From contig CAUJDC010000041.1 of NCBI GenBank assembly GCA_963169815.1, forward strand, positions 1 to 51,699: a stretch of 51,699 bases of DNA. The letters are read 5' to 3'. The position numbers and the translations under genes were made by a program. The notes under the pieces are model-generated. The model had not been told where the DNA came from. It worked only from the letters and a program-made list of their open reading frames with translations, and did no database searches. Source of the DNA: Patescibacteria group bacterium (GTDB taxonomy: Bacteria > Patescibacteriota > Gracilibacteria > UBA1369). Below are positions 40,991 through 51,363 of the stretch, piece after piece (position 1 is the first letter of the stretch; each line of letters begins with the position of its first letter).

Positions 40991-41809
40991 TTGGTGTTCC
41001 AAAATAAAAACAAAATTTGGCTAGGAGTAGCTAGAGTGGCTGTAGCTGCTGGGCTTTTTGTGGCCAGCGTAATGTGGGCATCAGCTCAGAGTACTTCAAC
41101 CAGTTATAAAGCTGTTGATTTCGTTAATCCAGAAGGTAGTTTAAGTGCTTCTTCATCATACAAACTTAATGATAGCGTTGACTATTATGGCGGAATTAAT
41201 GCTAGTAGTAATTATATAGAATGTACTGGGGACCATGCAGTACTTAGTGCTTGTGGAAGTACTGTTGCACCACCTCCACCACCAGGTGGAGGAGGTGGTG
41301 GTGGAGGAGGTGGTGGAATTGGGGCAGGTGGAGATCACCCAGATCATCAGGATTGTAATAAACTCGACTGTATTACAGATGAGCCCCCAATTGAAGAGGA
41401 AGAGCCACCTGTAAAGCCTCCTTTCCAATTGCCAAATATTGAAGAACCTTTAGCAGTGCCAGTTAGGCCAGCGGCACCAGTGGTGGAAGTATCAAAGCCA
41501 GTTGTTAAACCAGCTGAAGTAACTCCTGCTTTGGTCAATAAAGTTATTGAAAAGGTGATTGAAGAAGTGTTGCCAAATGAACCGCTCTGCCAGGATTTGA
41601 TCTGTGCTCAAGCCAGCATGTTAATAGCTCAAGGCGAAAAACTTCGTGGTGCAGCTGAAAATATTTGTACAGTTTATACTTATGGAGGCTTCGCCTTCAG
41701 AGGAGGATGTGAAAATATTGTCTTCTTCTGGGTAACATCGATAGTCATTGCCATTTTAGGGGCGGTAGGGGAAACAGTTAGAAGCAAGCGCCGTAAAAAG
41801 AAATTTTAA
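40991..41809 (+). CDS. Secreted, C-terminally anchored Pro/Gly-rich surface protein
   Basis: 272 residues. Start is TTG at 40991 or the adjacent GTG at 40994; no ATG fits. An N-terminal signal peptide (Lys/Trp, then Val/Ala/Leu core, ending ASAQS) is followed by repeats of the SSSYKLNDS / SSNYIE kind, then a Pro5-Gly11 block, a Pro/Glu/Val-rich stalk, and a C-terminal hydrophobic helix (FFWVTSIVIAILGAVG) ending in a basic RSKRRKKKF tail. This looks like a cell-surface stalk protein with a sorting or anchor helix (inference). Function unknown. Confidence 0.72.
   Translation: MVFQNKNKIWLGVARVAVAAGLFVASVMWASAQSTSTSYKAVDFVNPEGSLSASSSYKLNDSVDYYGGINASSNYIECTGDHAVLSACGSTVAPPPPPGGGGGGGGGGGIGAGGDHPDHQDCNKLDCITDEPPIEEEEPPVKPPFQLPNIEEPLAVPVRPAAPVVEVSKPVVKPAEVTPALVNKVIEKVIEEVLPNEPLCQDLICAQASMLIAQGEKLRGAAENICTVYTYGGFAFRGGCENIVFFWVTSIVIAILGAVGETVRSKRRKKKF
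41270..41298 (+). repeat. GC-rich palindrome at the poly-Pro / poly-Gly junction
   Basis: Two half-sites CCACCTCC (41270-41277) and GGAGGTGG (41291-41298) with an inner CCAC/GTGG stem and a 3-nt loop form a 12-bp GC-rich hairpin (one A-A mismatch), within an imperfect GGN repeat that continues to about 41336. Confidence 0.6.
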
Positions 41810-42832: not shown

Positions 42833-45800
42833 TTAGATAACTGGGTAAAACTTGTTCTTTTCAGCTTCTTCATAAGGATCAACAGTAACTTCAGGTTTAG
42901 TATTGTTTTCTTCATGGAGACGGCGGCGGAAAGTTTCACCTGCTGGAATCAATTTACCGATGATCACGTTTTCTTTGAGACCAGCGAGATTGTCGATGCG
43001 GGCTGTAGTTGAAGCTTCTACCAGTACACGGATTGTTTCCTGGAATGAAGCGGCAGACAGCCAGCTATCAGTGTGGAGAGATACTCTAGTCAAACCGAGT
43101 AAGAGACGTTCAAATGTAGCGATTTTTTTATTGTCCTTTTCAGTTTGAGCGTTAGTGAAGTCCACATCGAGAATGTCCATTACTTCACCTGGTAAGAGAG
43201 CAGTGTCTCCTGGTTCTAAGATTCTTACTTTAGAAAGCATTTGGCGGGCAATGATTTCGATATGCTTATCGTTGATGGTTTGACCTTGAGAGGCATAGAT
43301 GCTTTGTACTTCAGAAACGATATATTTTTGAGCAGTGTAAACATCTGTAAGGTCGATCAGATCGCGAAGGTTAAGATGTCCTGAAGTGAGGTTTTGGCCT
43401 TTCATTACTTTTTCCTTGTGCTTGATCTTGATGATTTTGCCAAATGGAATCTTGTAGGTAATAGTAATATTATCATTGCTGCGAACACGAACATGGTTAG
43501 TGTTTACTTCAACAATTTTACCGTTGAATTCAGAGCGCAATACGGCTTTGCTGCCAGCTGAACGGGCGATAACTTCTTTTTCTTTAACATGATCACCTTT
43601 CTTAACTGTGGCTTCCAAATCGCCACCTAGAATATAGTCTCTTTCCACTGGTTCTTCGGTAGTAACAATAATTTCAGTCTGTTGTCCTTTAGTAATAATT
43701 TGGGCAATACCATCGAGTTCACTCATAACTGCTGGAGATTTTGGAGCTCTGGCTTCAAACAATTCTTCTACACGAGTCAAACCTTGAGTAATATCACCTT
43801 CTTCTGAGGCTACACCACCCATGTGGAACGTTCTCATAGTCAGCTGTGTACCTGGTTCACCGATTGATTGAGCAGCGATAATACCTACTGCTGTACCTAA
43901 ATCTACTGATTTGTTTGTACCCAAATCTCTACCGTAACAAAGGATACAAATGCCACCACGAGTCTTACAAGTCATCACTGAGCGAACATTTACTTCAGTA
44001 ACCCCACCTTCTTCGATTTGCTTGAGGACTGGACGATCAATTTCAGTATTTCTTTCGCCAATAATTTCACCAGTCTTTGGATTGACCAAAGTGCTAGCAA
44101 GAGTGCGTCCGAAAATACGGTTTTCCAATTTTTCACCAATGCGATCACTTTCAGCTTTAGTTACAAGATGAGCGTGAGTAGATCCACAATCTAATTCTTT
44201 AATAATAATGTCTTGTACTGAGTCAACCAAACGACGAGTTAAGTGACCTGCTTCCGCAGTTTTTAAGGCAGTATCTGATTTACCTTTACGTCCACCGTGA
44301 GTCGCAATGAAGTATTCCAAGATAGTAAAGCCTTCTTTGAGGTTTGATTTAATTGGAAGTTCGATGGTTTTACCAGATGGATTGGCAACGAGACCTTTCA
44401 TACCACAGAGCTGAGTAATCTGTCCCCAGTTACCACGGGCTCCAGAGTTGATCATGTAATGAAGATCGTTTTCTGGATCGATACCATCAATCATCACTTT
44501 AGAGATATCATTCTTGGCTTTATTCCAGGTTCTGATTGTCTGAACATAACGTTCATTGTCAGTAATCAAACCACTTTGGAAGAGAGTATTGATCTGTTTA
44601 ATTTGAGTAGAACCTTCATCGATAATGCCGTCTTTAGCGTCAGGAATGATCATATCTGACGCGCCAATAGATAAACCTGAGTAAGTAGCGAATTCGAAAC
44701 CAATTTTCTTCATATGATCAACGATTTCAGCAACTTTTGCCGCACCGCAGAGTAGAAAAGCGTCATTGAGTAAGTTCCCGAGCTGTTTTTTGCCGAAAGT
44801 TACATTGTAGTAACCGAGTTCAGCTGGGAGATAACTGTTGAAGATAGCGCGGCCGAGAGTTGTTTCTTCGATTTTTCCACGGAAGCGGATCTTAATTTTA
44901 GCCTGAAGGTGGAGATAAGTTTGTCTCCAAGCCATAATAGCTTCGTTAATATCGGCATAAGTACTGCCTTCGCCTGGTTTTCCTGGAGTTTCTTTAGTGA
45001 GGTAATAACAACCAAGTACCATGTCCTGAACTGGAGTTACGATTGGTTCACCTGCTGATGGTTTGAGGAGGTTGCGGTTTGAAGCCATTAACATTTTAGC
45101 TTCTTCTTGAGCTGGACGAGAAAGTGGTACGTGAACGGCCATCTGGTCACCATCGAAGTCGGCATTAAAGGCTGTACAAACCATTGGATGGATTTGAATA
45201 GCTTTACCTTCTACCAATACTGGTTTGAAAGCCTGAATACCAAGACGGTGAAGTGTAGGAGCACGATTGAGGAGTACATAACGATCACGAGTTACTTCTT
45301 CCAAAATATCCCAAACAGCTCTTTCACCTGATTGAATTAATTTTTCAGAGCTCTTGATATTGTGCGCGAGACCATCGCGGATTAAACGACCAATAACGAA
45401 TGGTTTGAAAAGTTCCAAAGCCATTTGTTTGGGTAGACCACATTGGTCCAATTTGAGCCAAGGACCTACTACGATTACTGAACGGCCAGAGTAGTCCACA
45501 CGTTTACCGAGGAGGTTTTGACGGAAACGACCCTGTTTACCTTTAAGCATATCTGAGAGTGAGCGGAGTTTGCGCTTGTCGCCAGAATTGAAGACAGTTT
45601 TACCAGCACGAGCAGAATTGTTGAGGAGAGTATCTACGGCTTCCTGAAGCATACGTTTTTCATTTCTGGAAATTACTTCTGGAGCACCGATAGACATAAG
45701 TCTCTTCAGACGATTGTTTCTGTTAATAACACGGCGATAGAGATCGTTTAAATCAGAAGCGGCAAAACGTCCACCATCGAGTTGTACCATTGGACGAAGA

Positions 45801-46747
45801 TCTGGTGGGATTACTGGCAACACAGTCATAACCATCCATTCTGGATGAATGTCAGCTTTTAGGAGACTGCCAGCGAGTTTTAAACGCTTAATAATCTTTT
45901 TTTGCTTTTGACCACTAGATTTCTTTTGCTCAACTTCGAGCTGTTTGATTAATTCTGTTAAGTCGATGTTTTGGATGATTGTGCGGATAGCTTCAGCACC
46001 AATGGCAGCTTTGAAGATTTGACCAAATTTTGTAGAAAGCTCACGATATTCTAGTTCAGAGTAGATAGCTGTAATTTGAATGCCATCAAGTTGGTCTTTA
46101 GTTGATTTGTGCTGTGCATCTAGTTCATCAAGCCTCTGAGCATAGTCCTTTTCAATTTTAGACTTGTTGTCTTTGTTAGCGCTGACAGCTTTGCCCGCTT
46201 CTTCCTGAATCTTTTTGCGAAGATTTTTGTATTCGTTTTGAAGTTGTTCTTTTGCTTCATCCTTAGCCTTTTGATCGACTTCAGTGATGATGTAGGCAGC
46301 AAAATAAACTACTTGTTCAATTGCTTTGATAGGCAAGTCTAGTAAAAGACCAATTCTGGAAGGAGTAGAGCGGAGGAACCAGATGTGAGTTACTGGTACA
46401 GCCAATTTGATATGACCCATGCGTGAGCGACGTACAGAAGAGTGTGTTACTTCTACGCCACATTTTTCACAGATAATACCTTTGTAACGGATACGTTTGT
46501 ATTTTCCGCAATAACATTCCCAGTTTTTGGTTGGACCAAAAATCTTTTCACAGAAGAGACCATCTCTTTCTGGTTTTTGAGTACGATAATTGATTGTTTC
46601 TGGTTTCTTGATTTCACCGTAGGACCAGCCCAGAATTTCTTCTGGTGATGCTACTGAGACCGAAATTTTATCAAAGATATCCTTTGATTTGTTTCTGTCC
46701 TGAGCCTGATTTTGGTGGTTGTTGTGAACAGTTTGTTGTGAACTCAT
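42833..46747 (-). CDS. rpoC: RNA polymerase beta' subunit
   Basis: 1304 residues. N-terminal zinc site CYCG...CEKCG (C78, C80, C93, C96), catalytic NADFDGD (528-534) that binds the active-site Mg2+, and the second zinc site with [15 protein letters not shown] and CYG. The bridge helix/trigger loop region includes [14 protein letters not shown]. The protein is slightly shorter than E. coli (1407). It is separated from rpoB by ssb. Confidence 0.98.
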
Positions 46748-46792
46748 CGTGTGCTTTAGGTTAATTGTTTAAAGCCAAATGTTTATTGGTAG

Positions 46793-47224
46793 TTAGAGAC
46801 CTAGGCTGGCGTTGATGTCAGCATTGCAAGGAGGTGGTAGGTCGTCGGATCCTTCGCATGGTATGTATTCTTCTTCGCTTGAGTGCGTAACAGTATCCTT
46901 GCGATCTAGTATGATCAAATCCTGGATAACGATTTCTGTCTTATACTTTTTGATGTTCTCATGTTCCCAGCAGCGGGTTTTTAAGTATCCTTCAACGTAA
47001 ATCAATTTGCTTTTACGGAGATGGGAGTGACAGATCTCGGCCAGTTTGGCCCAAGCGACCAAATCGTGATACTCGGTGAGAGAGTGCTTCTGATTATCTC
47101 GGCTGATCCATTCACGGTTAGTAGCTATTGAGAAGGTGCAGACTGCCTGACCACTAGGAGTTTGGCGTAGTTCTGGATCTCTAGTGAGGTTGCCGACCAA
47201 GATAACTTTGTTGACGCTTCTCAT
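46793..47224 (-). CDS. ssb: Single-stranded DNA-binding protein
   Basis: 143 residues. OB-fold signature NKVILVGNLTRDPELRQTPSGQAVCTFSIATNREW (condensed here), then a Trp-containing strand VAWAKLAEICHSHLRKSKLIYVEGYL, and RCWEHENIKKYKTEIVIQDLIIL. The C-terminus (about 115-143) is short and moderately acidic but ends NASLGL, not the usual DDDIPF that recruits partner proteins. It lies between rpoB (26-bp gap) and rpoC (45-bp gap), an unusual position, with no internal promoter visible. Confidence 0.93.
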   Translation of the reverse strand: MRSVNKVILVGNLTRDPELRQTPSGQAVCTFSIATNREWISRDNQKHSLTEYHDLVAWAKLAEICHSHLRKSKLIYVEGYLKTRCWEHENIKKYKTEIVIQDLIILDRKDTVTHSSEEEYIPCEGSDDLPPPCNADINASLGL

Positions 47225-47250
47225 GGGTAAGAAGGTTAAAGACTAGTTGT

Positions 47251-50200
47251 TTACTTATCTTCGATGTCAATGTCTTCTAAATCTTCGGGATCTTCTTCCA
47301 TAGCTTTTAACTCTTCTTCAGGTGCATCTTCGATATCATCGAAGTTTATTTCAGCGTCCATTTTGGCGAAATCTTCGAGATCTGCTGGATCGCCGCCTTC
47401 TTTAATTTCTTCAACTTCAGTTGATTCCATTTCATCGTCTGATACTACGTCCATGCCAGAAACATGTTTTTCAATATCGGCAGTTTCTGTACCTTCAGCA
47501 GCGATTTTGCTAGTGATTTCTGCTTGTAAAGCAAGTTCTGCTTTGGCCGCATCGTCTAGTTCAGGAACTACTTCGAGTTCTGGATTTCCTTCGTATTCAT
47601 CTTCCGCAGCTTGTTCACTGTTTTCGAATTTAACTGATAGACCAAGTGATTGTAATTCACGTACCAATACGTTGAATGATTCTGGAGTCTTTGGTCTCTT
47701 GATTGGTTCGTCTTTAACGATTGATTCGTATGCTTTAGCGCGGCCGAAAATATCGTCGGATTTAATAGTAAGCATTTCTTGAAGCGTATGAGCAGCACCG
47801 TAAGCTTCAAGTGCCCAAACTTCCATTTCTCCGAATCTCTGACCACCATGCTGAGCTTTACCTCCGAGTGGTTGTTGAGTGACGAGAGAGTATGGACCTA
47901 CAGAACGGGCGTGAATCTTGTCTTCAACCAAGTGAGATAATTTGAGAATGTAGGCGATACCTACAGTTGTTTTGTGATCAAATGGTTCGCCAGTTTGTCC
48001 ATCAAATAACTGAATTTTACCATCTTCTGGGAGATCAGCTTGCTTGAGGAGATCATGAATTTGTTCAGTCTTAATACCGTTGAGGGCTGGAGTGGCTACA
48101 GTTATCCCGAGTTTAGAAGCGGCCCAACCAATATGTACTTCGAGAATCTGACCGATGTTCATACGAGAAGATACGCCGAGTGGATTCAAGATAATGTCGA
48201 TTGGTGTACCATCTTCGAGGAATGGCATGTTTTCTTGAGGAACAATCACTGAGATAACACCCTTATTACCGTGGCGTCCGGCAACTTTATCACCAACTGA
48301 TACTTTTCTAGTTTGTGCTACATTTACTTTAATTTGTTGATTTACACCTGTAGCGAGTTCATCACCGTTAGCACGAGTGAAGATTTGAACTCCTACGACT
48401 TTTCCACCTTCACCACCTGGGAGGCGGAGAGAGGTGTCTTTTACGTCACGGGCTTTGTCACCGAAGATAGCGCGGAGAAGTCTTTCTTCTGCAGAGAGTT
48501 CGGTTTCACCCTTTGGAGTAATTTTACCTACGAGGATATCGCCTTCACGAACTGATGCACCGATGCGAACGATACCGTTTTCATCGAGATCTTTTAATCT
48601 GGCTTCACCTACGTTTGGAATATCGCGAGTAATAATTTCAGGTCCGAGTTTAGTGTCGCGTACGTCGATAGTGAATGTTTCAATATGTACTGAATCGAAG
48701 TAACCATCTTTAACGATGCGATCAGAAACGATTACGGCATCTTCAAAGTTGTAACCTCTCCAAGCCATGTAGGCTACGAGTACATTGCGTCCGAGAGCCA
48801 ATTCACCATTTTCGATAGCTGGACCATCAGAGAGAACATCACCACGGCTTACTCTTTGGCCCTTGCTGACACGAGCACGATGGTGGATACAAGTAGATTG
48901 GTTAGATCTTTCGTAAGTGTTTAATTTATAAATAGATTTCTTGCCATTATCGTAGATAATCACGATTTGATCCGCATCTACATAAGAAACTGTACCATTG
49001 TCTTCAGCCAGATTAACCTGACCTGAACTTTTTGCTACCATTTCTTCCATACCTGTACCTACAACTGGGGACTGTGGTTTGATTAGAGATACGGCCTGAC
49101 GTTGCATGTTTGAACCCATTGAGGCACGAGTGTTGTCATCATGTTCCAAGAATGGAATAAGGGCAGTTGTTTCGGAGATAATCTGTTTTGGAGAAATATC
49201 CATATGAGTGATATTTTTGGCAGGTACCAATTCTGGTTCGCCAAACTGTCTTCCGGAAACAAGTGAGTCACTGATTTGACTTTCTTCATCAAGTTTTGTA
49301 TTGGCCTGAGCGATTACTTTGTCAGCATCTTCATCTGCTGAATAATAACGTACATCGTCTGTAGCATGTTTGAATACTTTGATTGATTCAAAGCCAAGTT
49401 TCTTGATTTTTTCAATTTCTTTTTCATTCAAAACTGTTTCTTTGGCAATTAATACTTTGCCAGTTTTGGGATCGAGAAGATCTGAACGAAGTTTTTTACC
49501 TGCCAATTTCTTGGCATCTTTTACTGAAATAGTTTCATTCATTGTACGATAAGGAGTTTCGATGAAACCATACTTGTTAACACGAGCATAAGTAGCGAGA
49601 TGTACTACGAGACCGATGTTTGGACCTTCTGGAGTGGCAATTGGACAGATACGACCATAGTGTGATGGATGCACGTCACGAACATCGAATGACGCTCTTT
49701 CACGAGTCAAACCACCTGGGCCCATAGCTGAGAGACGACGTTTGTGAGCCAATTCAGCGAGTGGATTAGTTTGATCCATGAACTGTGAAAGCTGTGAGCT
49801 AGCATAGAATTCACGGAGAGCTGCAGTAATTGGGCGAGAGTTGATTAACTGAGTTGGAGTAACTGTCTCCAAATCCATTACAGTCATACGATCCTTGGCG
49901 ATACGGTCTGTACGGAGTAAACCAACACGGAATTTGTTCTGAACCAATTCACCAACGGCACGGATACGGCGGTTAGAAAGATGATCGATATCATCTTCTT
50001 TACCATCACCATTGTTTAAATTGATTAGATGCTTGAGGATACGAACCAAATCTTCAACCTGGAAAGTGTGATATTCCTTAGTGTTTGGAGTTTCAATATT
50101 GAAACGCTTGTTGAGTTTGTAGCGGGCAACTGGTCCCATGTCATATTTCTTGTAATCGAAGAACATGGATTGAATCAAAGCTTTGGCATTTTCAGGAGTA

Positions 50201-51363
50201 GCTAGATCGCCTGGGCGAATTTTCTTGTAAATATTTTGATATGCTTCATCAAGAGTCTTAGAACTGTCTTTATCAAGAGTATTGAGAATGAAGTCACGTT
50301 CTTTGATAGTGTCTTTGAAAATATCACGAATTTCTTGGTCAGTAGAGAAACCAAAAACACGAAGCAGGGAAGTTACAGGAATTTTTCTCTTACGGTCAAT
50401 TTTTACGCTGATAATGTCTTTCTTGTCAGTTTCAATTTCGAGCCAAGCACCACGTTTGGGAATAATTTTAGCGTTGAAAGCGTTTTGCATGCCGGCGTTC
50501 TTTGAGAAGAATACACCTGGTGAACGAACGATTTGAGAAACCACTACTCTTTCGATACCGTTTACAATGAAAGTACCTTTGGCAGTCATGAGTGGAATAG
50601 CACCAAGATAAACATCCTGTTCTTTAATTTCACCACTTTCTTTGTTTACTAATTGTACATGTACCTTGAGTGGAGCTTCATAGGTAAGGTTTTTTACCTT
50701 ACAAGTTTCTGGGTCGTATTTTGGCTCGTCAATAATATGATCAAGTAATTGTAACTCCAATTTTTTCCCTGAAAAATCAGTAATTGGAGAGATTTCATCT
50801 AATAATTCACGAATACCTTGATCGAGGAACCAGCGATATGAATCGAGCTGAACTTCAATCAAGTTTGGTAAAACAATATTTTTATCGATACGATCGTTAA
50901 AGTATTTGCGCTTAGAAGACTCCTTCATAACGATATTTTCCATCGGGAGGAGTTTGTAAACTTCTTCAGCCATATTGAAAGCTTTGCTTTTAACAGTAGC
51001 TTTAACTGATTTAGCAGGGGCTTTTGGAGCCTCTTTAGCAGCTGGTTTTGATTTGGCTACTGGAGCGACTTTAGCTTTCGGATCTGGCCGACTACCAGAG
51101 GTGTCGCTATTTTGTGTTGCGGCTTTAGCAGTAGTTTTTTTAACTGGCTTAGCGGCTTTTGGCGCGATTTTCTTTGCAGGCTTAGTAACTTTTTTAGGAG
51201 CTGCTTTAATTTTTGCCTTTGGCTTGCTAACCACTTTTTTCACTACTTTTTTGGCAGCTTTAGAGACAACCGGCTTTTTGGCTGGTTTGCTTTTTTTGGC
51301 TGACTTGGAAATAGTTTTTTTGGCTGCTGGCTTCTTGGCTTTGGAAAGTTTTTTCTTCGGCAT
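47251..51363 (-). CDS. rpoB: RNA polymerase beta subunit with basic N-terminal and acidic C-terminal extensions
   Basis: 1370 residues. The catalytic core is normal: the rif region (QLSQFMDQTNPLAELAHKRR, RRLSAMGPGGLTRERASFD), HPSHYGRICPIATPEGPNIG, GYNFEDAVIVSDRI and SVGDKVAGRHGNKGVIS. Rifampicin-contact residues (Asp, His and Ser of the 516/526/531 set) are the sensitive type. The first 130 residues are 43 Lys plus Ala/Pro/Val/Thr repeats, and the last 119 residues have 47 Asp/Glu. An internal ATG at 50973 (MAEEVYK) is an alternative start that would drop the basic extension. Confidence 0.97.
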   Translation of the reverse strand: MPKKKLSKAKKPAAKKTISKSAKKSKPAKKPVVSKAAKKVVKKVVSKPKAKIKAAPKKVTKPAKKIAPKAAKPVKKTTAKAATQNSDTSGSRPDPKAKVAPVAKSKPAAKEAPKAPAKSVKATVKSKAFNMAEEVYKLLPMENIVMKESSKRKYFNDRIDKNIVLPNLIEVQLDSYRWFLDQGIRELLDEISPITDFSGKKLELQLLDHIIDEPKYDPETCKVKNLTYEAPLKVHVQLVNKESGEIKEQDVYLGAIPLMTAKGTFIVNGIERVVVSQIVRSPGVFFSKNAGMQNAFNAKIIPKRGAWLEIETDKKDIISVKIDRKRKIPVTSLLRVFGFSTDQEIRDIFKDTIKERDFILNTLDKDSSKTLDEAYQNIYKKIRPGDLATPENAKALIQSMFFDYKKYDMGPVARYKLNKRFNIETPNTKEYHTFQVEDLVRILKHLINLNNGDGKEDDIDHLSNRRIRAVGELVQNKFRVGLLRTDRIAKDRMTVMDLETVTPTQLINSRPITAALREFYASSQLSQFMDQTNPLAELAHKRRLSAMGPGGLTRERASFDVRDVHPSHYGRICPIATPEGPNIGLVVHLATYARVNKYGFIETPYRTMNETISVKDAKKLAGKKLRSDLLDPKTGKVLIAKETVLNEKEIEKIKKLGFESIKVFKHATDDVRYYSADEDADKVIAQANTKLDEESQISDSLVSGRQFGEPELVPAKNITHMDISPKQIISETTALIPFLEHDDNTRASMGSNMQRQAVSLIKPQSPVVGTGMEEMVAKSSGQVNLAEDNGTVSYVDADQIVIIYDNGKKSIYKLNTYERSNQSTCIHHRARVSKGQRVSRGDVLSDGPAIENGELALGRNVLVAYMAWRGYNFEDAVIVSDRIVKDGYFDSVHIETFTIDVRDTKLGPEIITRDIPNVGEARLKDLDENGIVRIGASVREGDILVGKITPKGETELSAEERLLRAIFGDKARDVKDTSLRLPGGEGGKVVGVQIFTRANGDELATGVNQQIKVNVAQTRKVSVGDKVAGRHGNKGVISVIVPQENMPFLEDGTPIDIILNPLGVSSRMNIGQILEVHIGWAASKLGITVATPALNGIKTEQIHDLLKQADLPEDGKIQLFDGQTGEPFDHKTTVGIAYILKLSHLVEDKIHARSVGPYSLVTQQPLGGKAQHGGQRFGEMEVWALEAYGAAHTLQEMLTIKSDDIFGRAKAYESIVKDEPIKRPKTPESFNVLVRELQSLGLSVKFENSEQAAEDEYEGNPELEVVPELDDAAKAELALQAEITSKIAAEGTETADIEKHVSGMDVVSDDEMESTEVEEIKEGGDPADLEDFAKMDAEINFDDIEDAPEEELKAMEEDPEDLEDIDIEDK

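Follow-up and report, generated by a model that had tools for sequence, protein, structure and literature searches.

The locus analysed here raises the question of what a gene for a single-stranded DNA-binding protein (SSB) is doing between rpoB and rpoC, and whether its product serves RNA polymerase, some other machinery, or the cell at large. It lies in a window of 51,699 nucleotides, contig C41 of a 1.09-Mb genome with a stated completeness of 99.89%, in which rpoB, ssb and rpoC follow one another in this order on the minus strand (Table 1). The collinear order, the coordinates and both gaps agree with an earlier note on this DNA. That note had also seen no internal promoter, and indeed a sigma-70 consensus scan, which is weak evidence for this lineage, detected no promoter-like or terminator-like site on the minus strand from 46400 to 47600, in a manner compatible with co-transcription of the three genes. 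The plus strand of the same interval yielded one promoter-like and one terminator-like site, and shuffled sequences are expected to yield 2.0 and 1.1 over both strands. The closest named relatives of the junction SSB, as we call it below, come from Candidatus Peregrinibacteria, whose tiny members are uncultured, the best of them from UBA1369 with 74% identity.

Two further features of the window are worth recording. RpoB carries an N-terminal extension of more than 100 residues, rich in lysine, alanine and proline, as well as a long acidic C-terminal tail. The plus-strand ORF between rpsG and fusA has, by eye, a signal-peptide-like start, a glycine/proline-rich middle and a C-terminal hydrophobic segment.

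Table 1. Coordinates of the rpoB-ssb-rpoC junction, of parts of the junction SSB, and of other genes mentioned in the text
Feature	Position	Strand	Description
rpoB	47251-51363	(-)	1370 aa, complete; Pfam match
rpoB-ssb gap	47225-47250	(-)	26 bases, read from sequence
Junction ssb	46793-47224	(-)	143 aa; single OB domain plus disordered tail
OB-fold ssDNA-binding domain of junction ssb	46916-47215	(-)	Residues 4-103
Variable disordered tail linker of junction ssb	46817-46894	(-)	YIP motif, residues 120-122
C-terminal tip of junction ssb	46796-46816	(-)	INASLGL, replaces canonical (D/E)DLPF tip
ssb-rpoC gap	46748-46792	(-)	45 bases, read from sequence
rpoC	42833-46747	(-)	1304 aa, complete; Pfam match
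ORF between minus-strand rpsG and fusA	40991-41809	(+)	272 aa; no Pfam match
Antiporter-like gene, example	L046:1583-2542		Before rpoC
Antiporter-like gene, example	L006:135-1139		Before rpoC
Antiporter-like gene, example	L036:1029-2039		Before rpoC

Distribution of ssb at the rpoB-rpoC junction

The stretch upstream of rpoC was read in three sets of genomes, all within one phylum. In the window's own order, 12 of 89 genomes remained unread (nine without an RpoC match and three with rpoC at a contig edge), and the 77 that were read comprised 58 with ssb, 11 with rpoB and rpoC adjacent, five with an antiporter gene alone, and three made unreadable by contig ends. This places ssb upstream of rpoC in 58 of the 74 readable genomes, which represent 11 of the 15 families that were read, with an antiporter gene in between in five of the 58; the other 16 readable genomes have no ssb at the junction. 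Lineages lacking the gene include f2, f3, f6 and f16 as well as G003, G026, G049 and G054. Other orders of the same class (49 genomes read, four of 53 unread) contained ssb upstream of rpoC in 12 of 48 readable genomes, the rest being 25 with adjacent genes, 11 without rpoB upstream, and one cut by an edge. Outside the class, no ssb was found at the junction in any of the 49 readable genomes: the 51 genomes read (four of 55 were not) included 46 with rpoB and rpoC adjacent, one with another insert, two without rpoB upstream, and two edges. These counts show that the junction ssb is common in the order, patchy, and, within the phylum, seen in one class only. As a separate observation, rpoB was not found in the roughly 1.3-1.9 kb upstream of rpoC in 11 genomes belonging to families f21 (L051, L160, L162, L168, L281) and f19 (L044, L171, L177, L278-L280).

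Altogether, 70 genomes carry the junction ssb, and both flanks are visible in 67 of them, the rpoC side alone being seen in G053, G033 and G166. The median gaps are 36 bases between rpoB and ssb and 41 bases between ssb and rpoC, as measured in 63 of the 70 junctions after exclusion of G033, G166 and the five junctions containing the antiporter. Because it recurs in most readable junctions of the order with such short gaps, the placement of ssb is not a matter of chance. An assembly artefact or a recent local rearrangement, in favour of which we found no point, is refuted by the survey and may be set aside almost entirely, since the same arrangement is seen in those 70 genomes and, with both rpoB and rpoC flanks, in 43 of 80 named loci, a set that overlaps with the surveyed genomes.

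The slot between rpoB and rpoC is also open to unrelated genes. A Ca2+/Na+ antiporter-like gene (TIGR00367, whose curated cut-off is exceeded by one of the three proteins scanned) precedes rpoC in families f3, f4, f7 and f9; among the 77 genomes of the order it accompanies ssb in five and occurs without ssb in five, with two additional cases at cut junctions. An SLH-domain gene was found in the junction of G166, and a YdjM-family gene in that of G119, which belongs to another class. Since unrelated genes have also been inserted there, position alone constitutes weak evidence for a link to transcription.

The OB domain and its paralogues

The junction SSB scores 111.3 bits (E-value 2.8e-32) against PF00436 and 129.6 bits against TIGR00621, above the respective cut-offs of 26 and 53.95. 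Three tryptophans, which we take to be the aromatic ssDNA-contact residues of SSB, are conserved among the 78 junction SSBs compared (W39 in 76, W58 in 77, W86 in 76). A single-chain structure model, built on 46 junction SSBs with the first methionine omitted, shows block means of pLDDT between 94 and 98 for model residues 11-100, falling to 48-60 across the final 32 residues, and its best match in the PDB is 5odn, the SSB of Salinibacter ruber, with a TM-score of 0.89 normalised by the target. Given the matches to both SSB profiles, the confidently modelled OB fold and the conserved aromatics, it is likely that the junction SSB retains ssDNA binding.

It is not the only SSB of its genome, a possibility that we rejected upon finding three SSB genes. 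The copy on contig C25 ends in VTIDDLPF and is of the canonical type, while the copy on C29 ends shortly past the OB domain and adjoins a gene that by eye resembles pgk. The second ssb envisaged in the earlier note does exist, and one of these copies even has the DDLPF tip, but none is located between rpsF and rpsR, which are adjacent to each other in this genome. With the insertion being widespread, the circumstances which that note associated with a local rearrangement (a second canonical ssb with rpsF/rpsR, and no insertion in close relatives) do not apply. Relatives often encode an SSB of junction type, recognisable by its MRSVNKV-like start, behind rpsF, and G025, G050, G059 and G069 possess both rpsF-linked and junction SSBs with different tips.

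All SSBs were searched for in 21 junction-ssb genomes (G000; G002, G005, G009, G018, G025, G050, G059 and G069; and twelve of other orders), and an LPF-tipped SSB is present in 18 of these, the window's genome included. The presence of this additional, canonically tipped SSB weakens the idea, also put forward in the earlier note, that through co-transcription the supply of SSB would be coupled to that of RNA polymerase. In G096, G180 and G194 (completeness 98, 93 and 88%), the junction SSB was found alone, with no LPF-tipped SSB. More generally, 87 of 99 genomes have at least two SSB-domain matches, a two-domain gene being counted twice. SSB chains with two OB domains are the layout known from Deinococcus and Thermus, and the LPF-tipped SSBs of other orders are reminiscent of it: in nine of the 12 genomes (L305, L306, L307, L309, L311, L313, L314, L315, L317) they combine two OB domains in one chain and end in PEDLPF.

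In phylogenetic trees the LPF-tipped SSBs form a separate clade (support 100/98, and 100/100 in a thinned set), and the junction and rpsF-linked SSBs are placed outside it, intermixed with each other in both trees. The larger tree includes 134 of 138 distinct SSBs, four without a visible start having been excluded, and is to be read with the caution that its bootstrap had not settled and that the OB domain gives few columns. The thinned set, from which nine long-branch rows (five of them junction SSBs) were dropped, retained 37 of the 73 remaining junction rows, 16 rpsF-linked rows and six LPF rows; on this set, a tree constrained to unite the junction SSBs in one clade was rejected at borderline significance (p-AU 0.044).

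A junction-specific C-terminal tip

The SSB in the window ends in NADINASLGL and thus lacks the canonical IPF-type tip. An LGL or FGL ending is present in 48 of the 58 junction SSBs of the order, where the tip consensus reads I-(D/S)-x-D-L-G-L (SLGL in the window's copy), and 44 of all 70 junction SSBs end in exactly DLGL. Counting back from the end, 47 distinct full-length proteins have L in 47, G in 47, L in 46, D in 44, a variable position, D in 34 (S in eight) and I in 45. The linker preceding the tip is long, acidic and variable; its motif [DE][YF][ILMV]P occurs in 41 of 82 junction SSBs versus 6 of 56 elsewhere, being commoner at the junction and far from universal. Junction SSBs with other endings are those of families f13 and f15 (nine genomes), of G002 (NLEI), and of all 12 genomes of other orders.

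When distinct SSBs are sorted by place, the LGL-type ending is found in 50 of 83 at the junction (the 50 include L012, a fragment belonging to the gene that was read whole as L091) versus none of 88 elsewhere. The remaining junction SSBs include 31 without terminal F and two with other F endings, and none of the 83 ends in PF. The 37 rpsF-linked SSBs comprise 20 with N[MVIL]F, nine with another terminal F and eight without F, and the 51 SSBs at other places comprise 30 with PF, 19 without F and two with other F endings. Among the SSBs read, then, LGL is restricted to the junction and PF is missing there, a pattern from which genomes that were not fully searched might differ. The N(M/V/I/L)F ending of rpsF-linked SSBs (L102, L110, L114, L342, L348 and others) constitutes a third kind of tip. 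The 80 named loci include 26 with an LGL-type ending, and all 26 adjoin rpoB or rpoC; 13 genomes without a junction ssb have 30 SSB genes, and no LGL is seen among their 29 readable ends.

Eight genomes were also scanned for D-L-G-L preceding a TAA or TGA stop. The junction SSB was retrieved in all eight, and was the sole such protein recurring in more than one genome; the search pattern is weak in itself, as its reversed control yielded 22 hits in the same genomes. A second DLGL-tipped protein that might share the partner was therefore rejected as a candidate, none being present in more than one of the eight genomes among the 30 of 37 hits that were located and read. Covarying columns were likewise looked for in two stretches of RNA polymerase: no column at the RpoB C-terminus (46 LGL versus 16 no-ssb genomes) or the RpoC N-terminus (48 versus 16) separates the two groups, in a comparison confounded by kinship.

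A possible companion of RNA polymerase and its alternatives

We propose, with a probability of roughly 40%, that the junction SSB is a dedicated paralogue in the RNA polymerase operon, presumably transcribed together with rpoB and rpoC, the replaced tip of which binds another partner, perhaps RNA polymerase itself. Its OB domain keeps the aromatics for ssDNA binding, whereas the docking tip at the C-terminus has given way to a lineage-specific peptide with the ending D-L-G-L, and the protein should therefore not recruit the partners that SSB usually has in repair and replication. PMC10143822 describes the SSB C-terminal tip (of the IPF type) as strongly conserved across eubacteria and indispensable for the recognition of partners. 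As the canonical tip docks partners and the new tip has turned up on no copy but the one in the RNA polymerase operon, the leading candidate is RNA polymerase, or else a factor that moves along with it, and the new tip would dock on one of these. There the SSB would most likely cover ssDNA exposed by transcription, be it on the non-template strand, in R-loops or at stalled complexes. It might, however, stabilise R-loops rather than prevent them, since added ssDNA-binding proteins increase R-loop frequency in vitro, according to PMC12478114. The earlier note had suggested that the SSB may act with the polymerase, and the junction-specific tip lends this indirect support. Points against a transcription role are the antiporter gene in the same junction, the 16 readable genomes of the order without the junction ssb, the junction SSBs that do not end in LGL, and the lack of a separating column at the RpoB C-terminus or the RpoC N-terminus.

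The same weight has to be given to the view that a specialised SSB paralogue with a role in repair, recombination or DNA uptake has merely hitchhiked in a strongly expressed operon, in which case the slot is permissive, the partner has nothing to do with transcription, and the location provides only growth-linked expression. The antiporter, SLH-domain and YdjM-family genes in the same slot speak for it, as do the 16 order genomes that do without the junction ssb and the common presence of several SSBs per genome. On the other hand, ssb is found in 58 of the 63 order junctions with any insert and the antiporter in ten (both in five); the junction ssb also extends over most families read, and tip type goes with place.

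We find it rather improbable that the housekeeping SSB left rpsF-rpsR for the rpoB-rpoC gap, with the effect that SSB would be supplied in step with RNA polymerase. In favour of such a move, the junction SSB matches the rpsF-linked SSBs of relatives in type, sharing their start and intermixing with them in trees, the rpsF-rpsR gap is empty in the window's genome, and no other SSB was found in the three genomes in which the junction copy is alone; yet an LPF-tipped SSB is encoded elsewhere in the window's genome and in 17 of 20 further junction-ssb genomes, and in four genomes the rpsF-linked and junction copies coexist with differing tips. The dedicated paralogue could also be taken further, to a bacterial RNA polymerase with an SSB of its own, made together with it, tethered by D-L-G-L and accompanying the transcription bubble or R-loops, the rpsF-linked, LPF-tipped and junction SSBs then forming a set in which exchanged tips direct each SSB to a different machine; in this full form the proposal is a doubtful one.

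Relation to known systems

Comparison of the junction SSB with canonical SSBs, which bind ssDNA as homotetramers, shows that both have the OB domain and its conserved aromatics, and likewise a disordered acidic tail with a short conserved peptide at the C-terminus. It differs from them in that this peptide reads DLGL (SLGL in the window) instead of (D/E)DxPF, in its location between rpoB and rpoC, and in being a paralogue beside an LPF-tipped SSB. The Bacillus-type SsbB resembles the junction SSB in being a second, extra paralogue that lacks the canonical tip, but the latter possesses a long acidic tail ending in a conserved tip specific to it, and lies in the RNA polymerase operon.

Precedents exist for SSBs that work with RNA polymerase. 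Phage N4 SSB acts on E. coli RNA polymerase, its C-terminal residues being essential and the contact lying at the β′ C-terminus, as described in PMC4496689. An SSB whose C-terminus is essential with RNA polymerase would be a model for the proposed mechanism; it is, however, a phage protein, the RNA polymerase interaction is one reported for N4SSB, and the likeness is one of described function. In PMC3820547, Pyrococcus abyssi RPA is reported to interact with RNA polymerase subunits and to stimulate transcription in vitro, and an interaction between Sulfolobus SSB and RNA polymerase is cited. These are likewise ssDNA-binding proteins that interact with RNA polymerase and, as described there, raise in vitro transcription, but they belong to another domain of life and to other SSB/RPA types. 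Our search of the open-access PMC literature found neither an ssb in the rpoB-rpoC gap nor an SSB tip of this kind described.

Overall, the interpretation offered in the earlier note is partly supported, and the altered, conserved tip and the SSB paralogues are new beyond it. The junction proteins represent an SSB subfamily in which a different conserved peptide stands in place of the canonical tip, and this peptide was found on no other copy than the one residing in the RNA polymerase operon. Whether a cellular bacterial RNA polymerase has a dedicated SSB thereby becomes a question directly testable through a seven-residue peptide, and the family as a whole may provide a case of SSB paralogues sorted to their partners by their tips.
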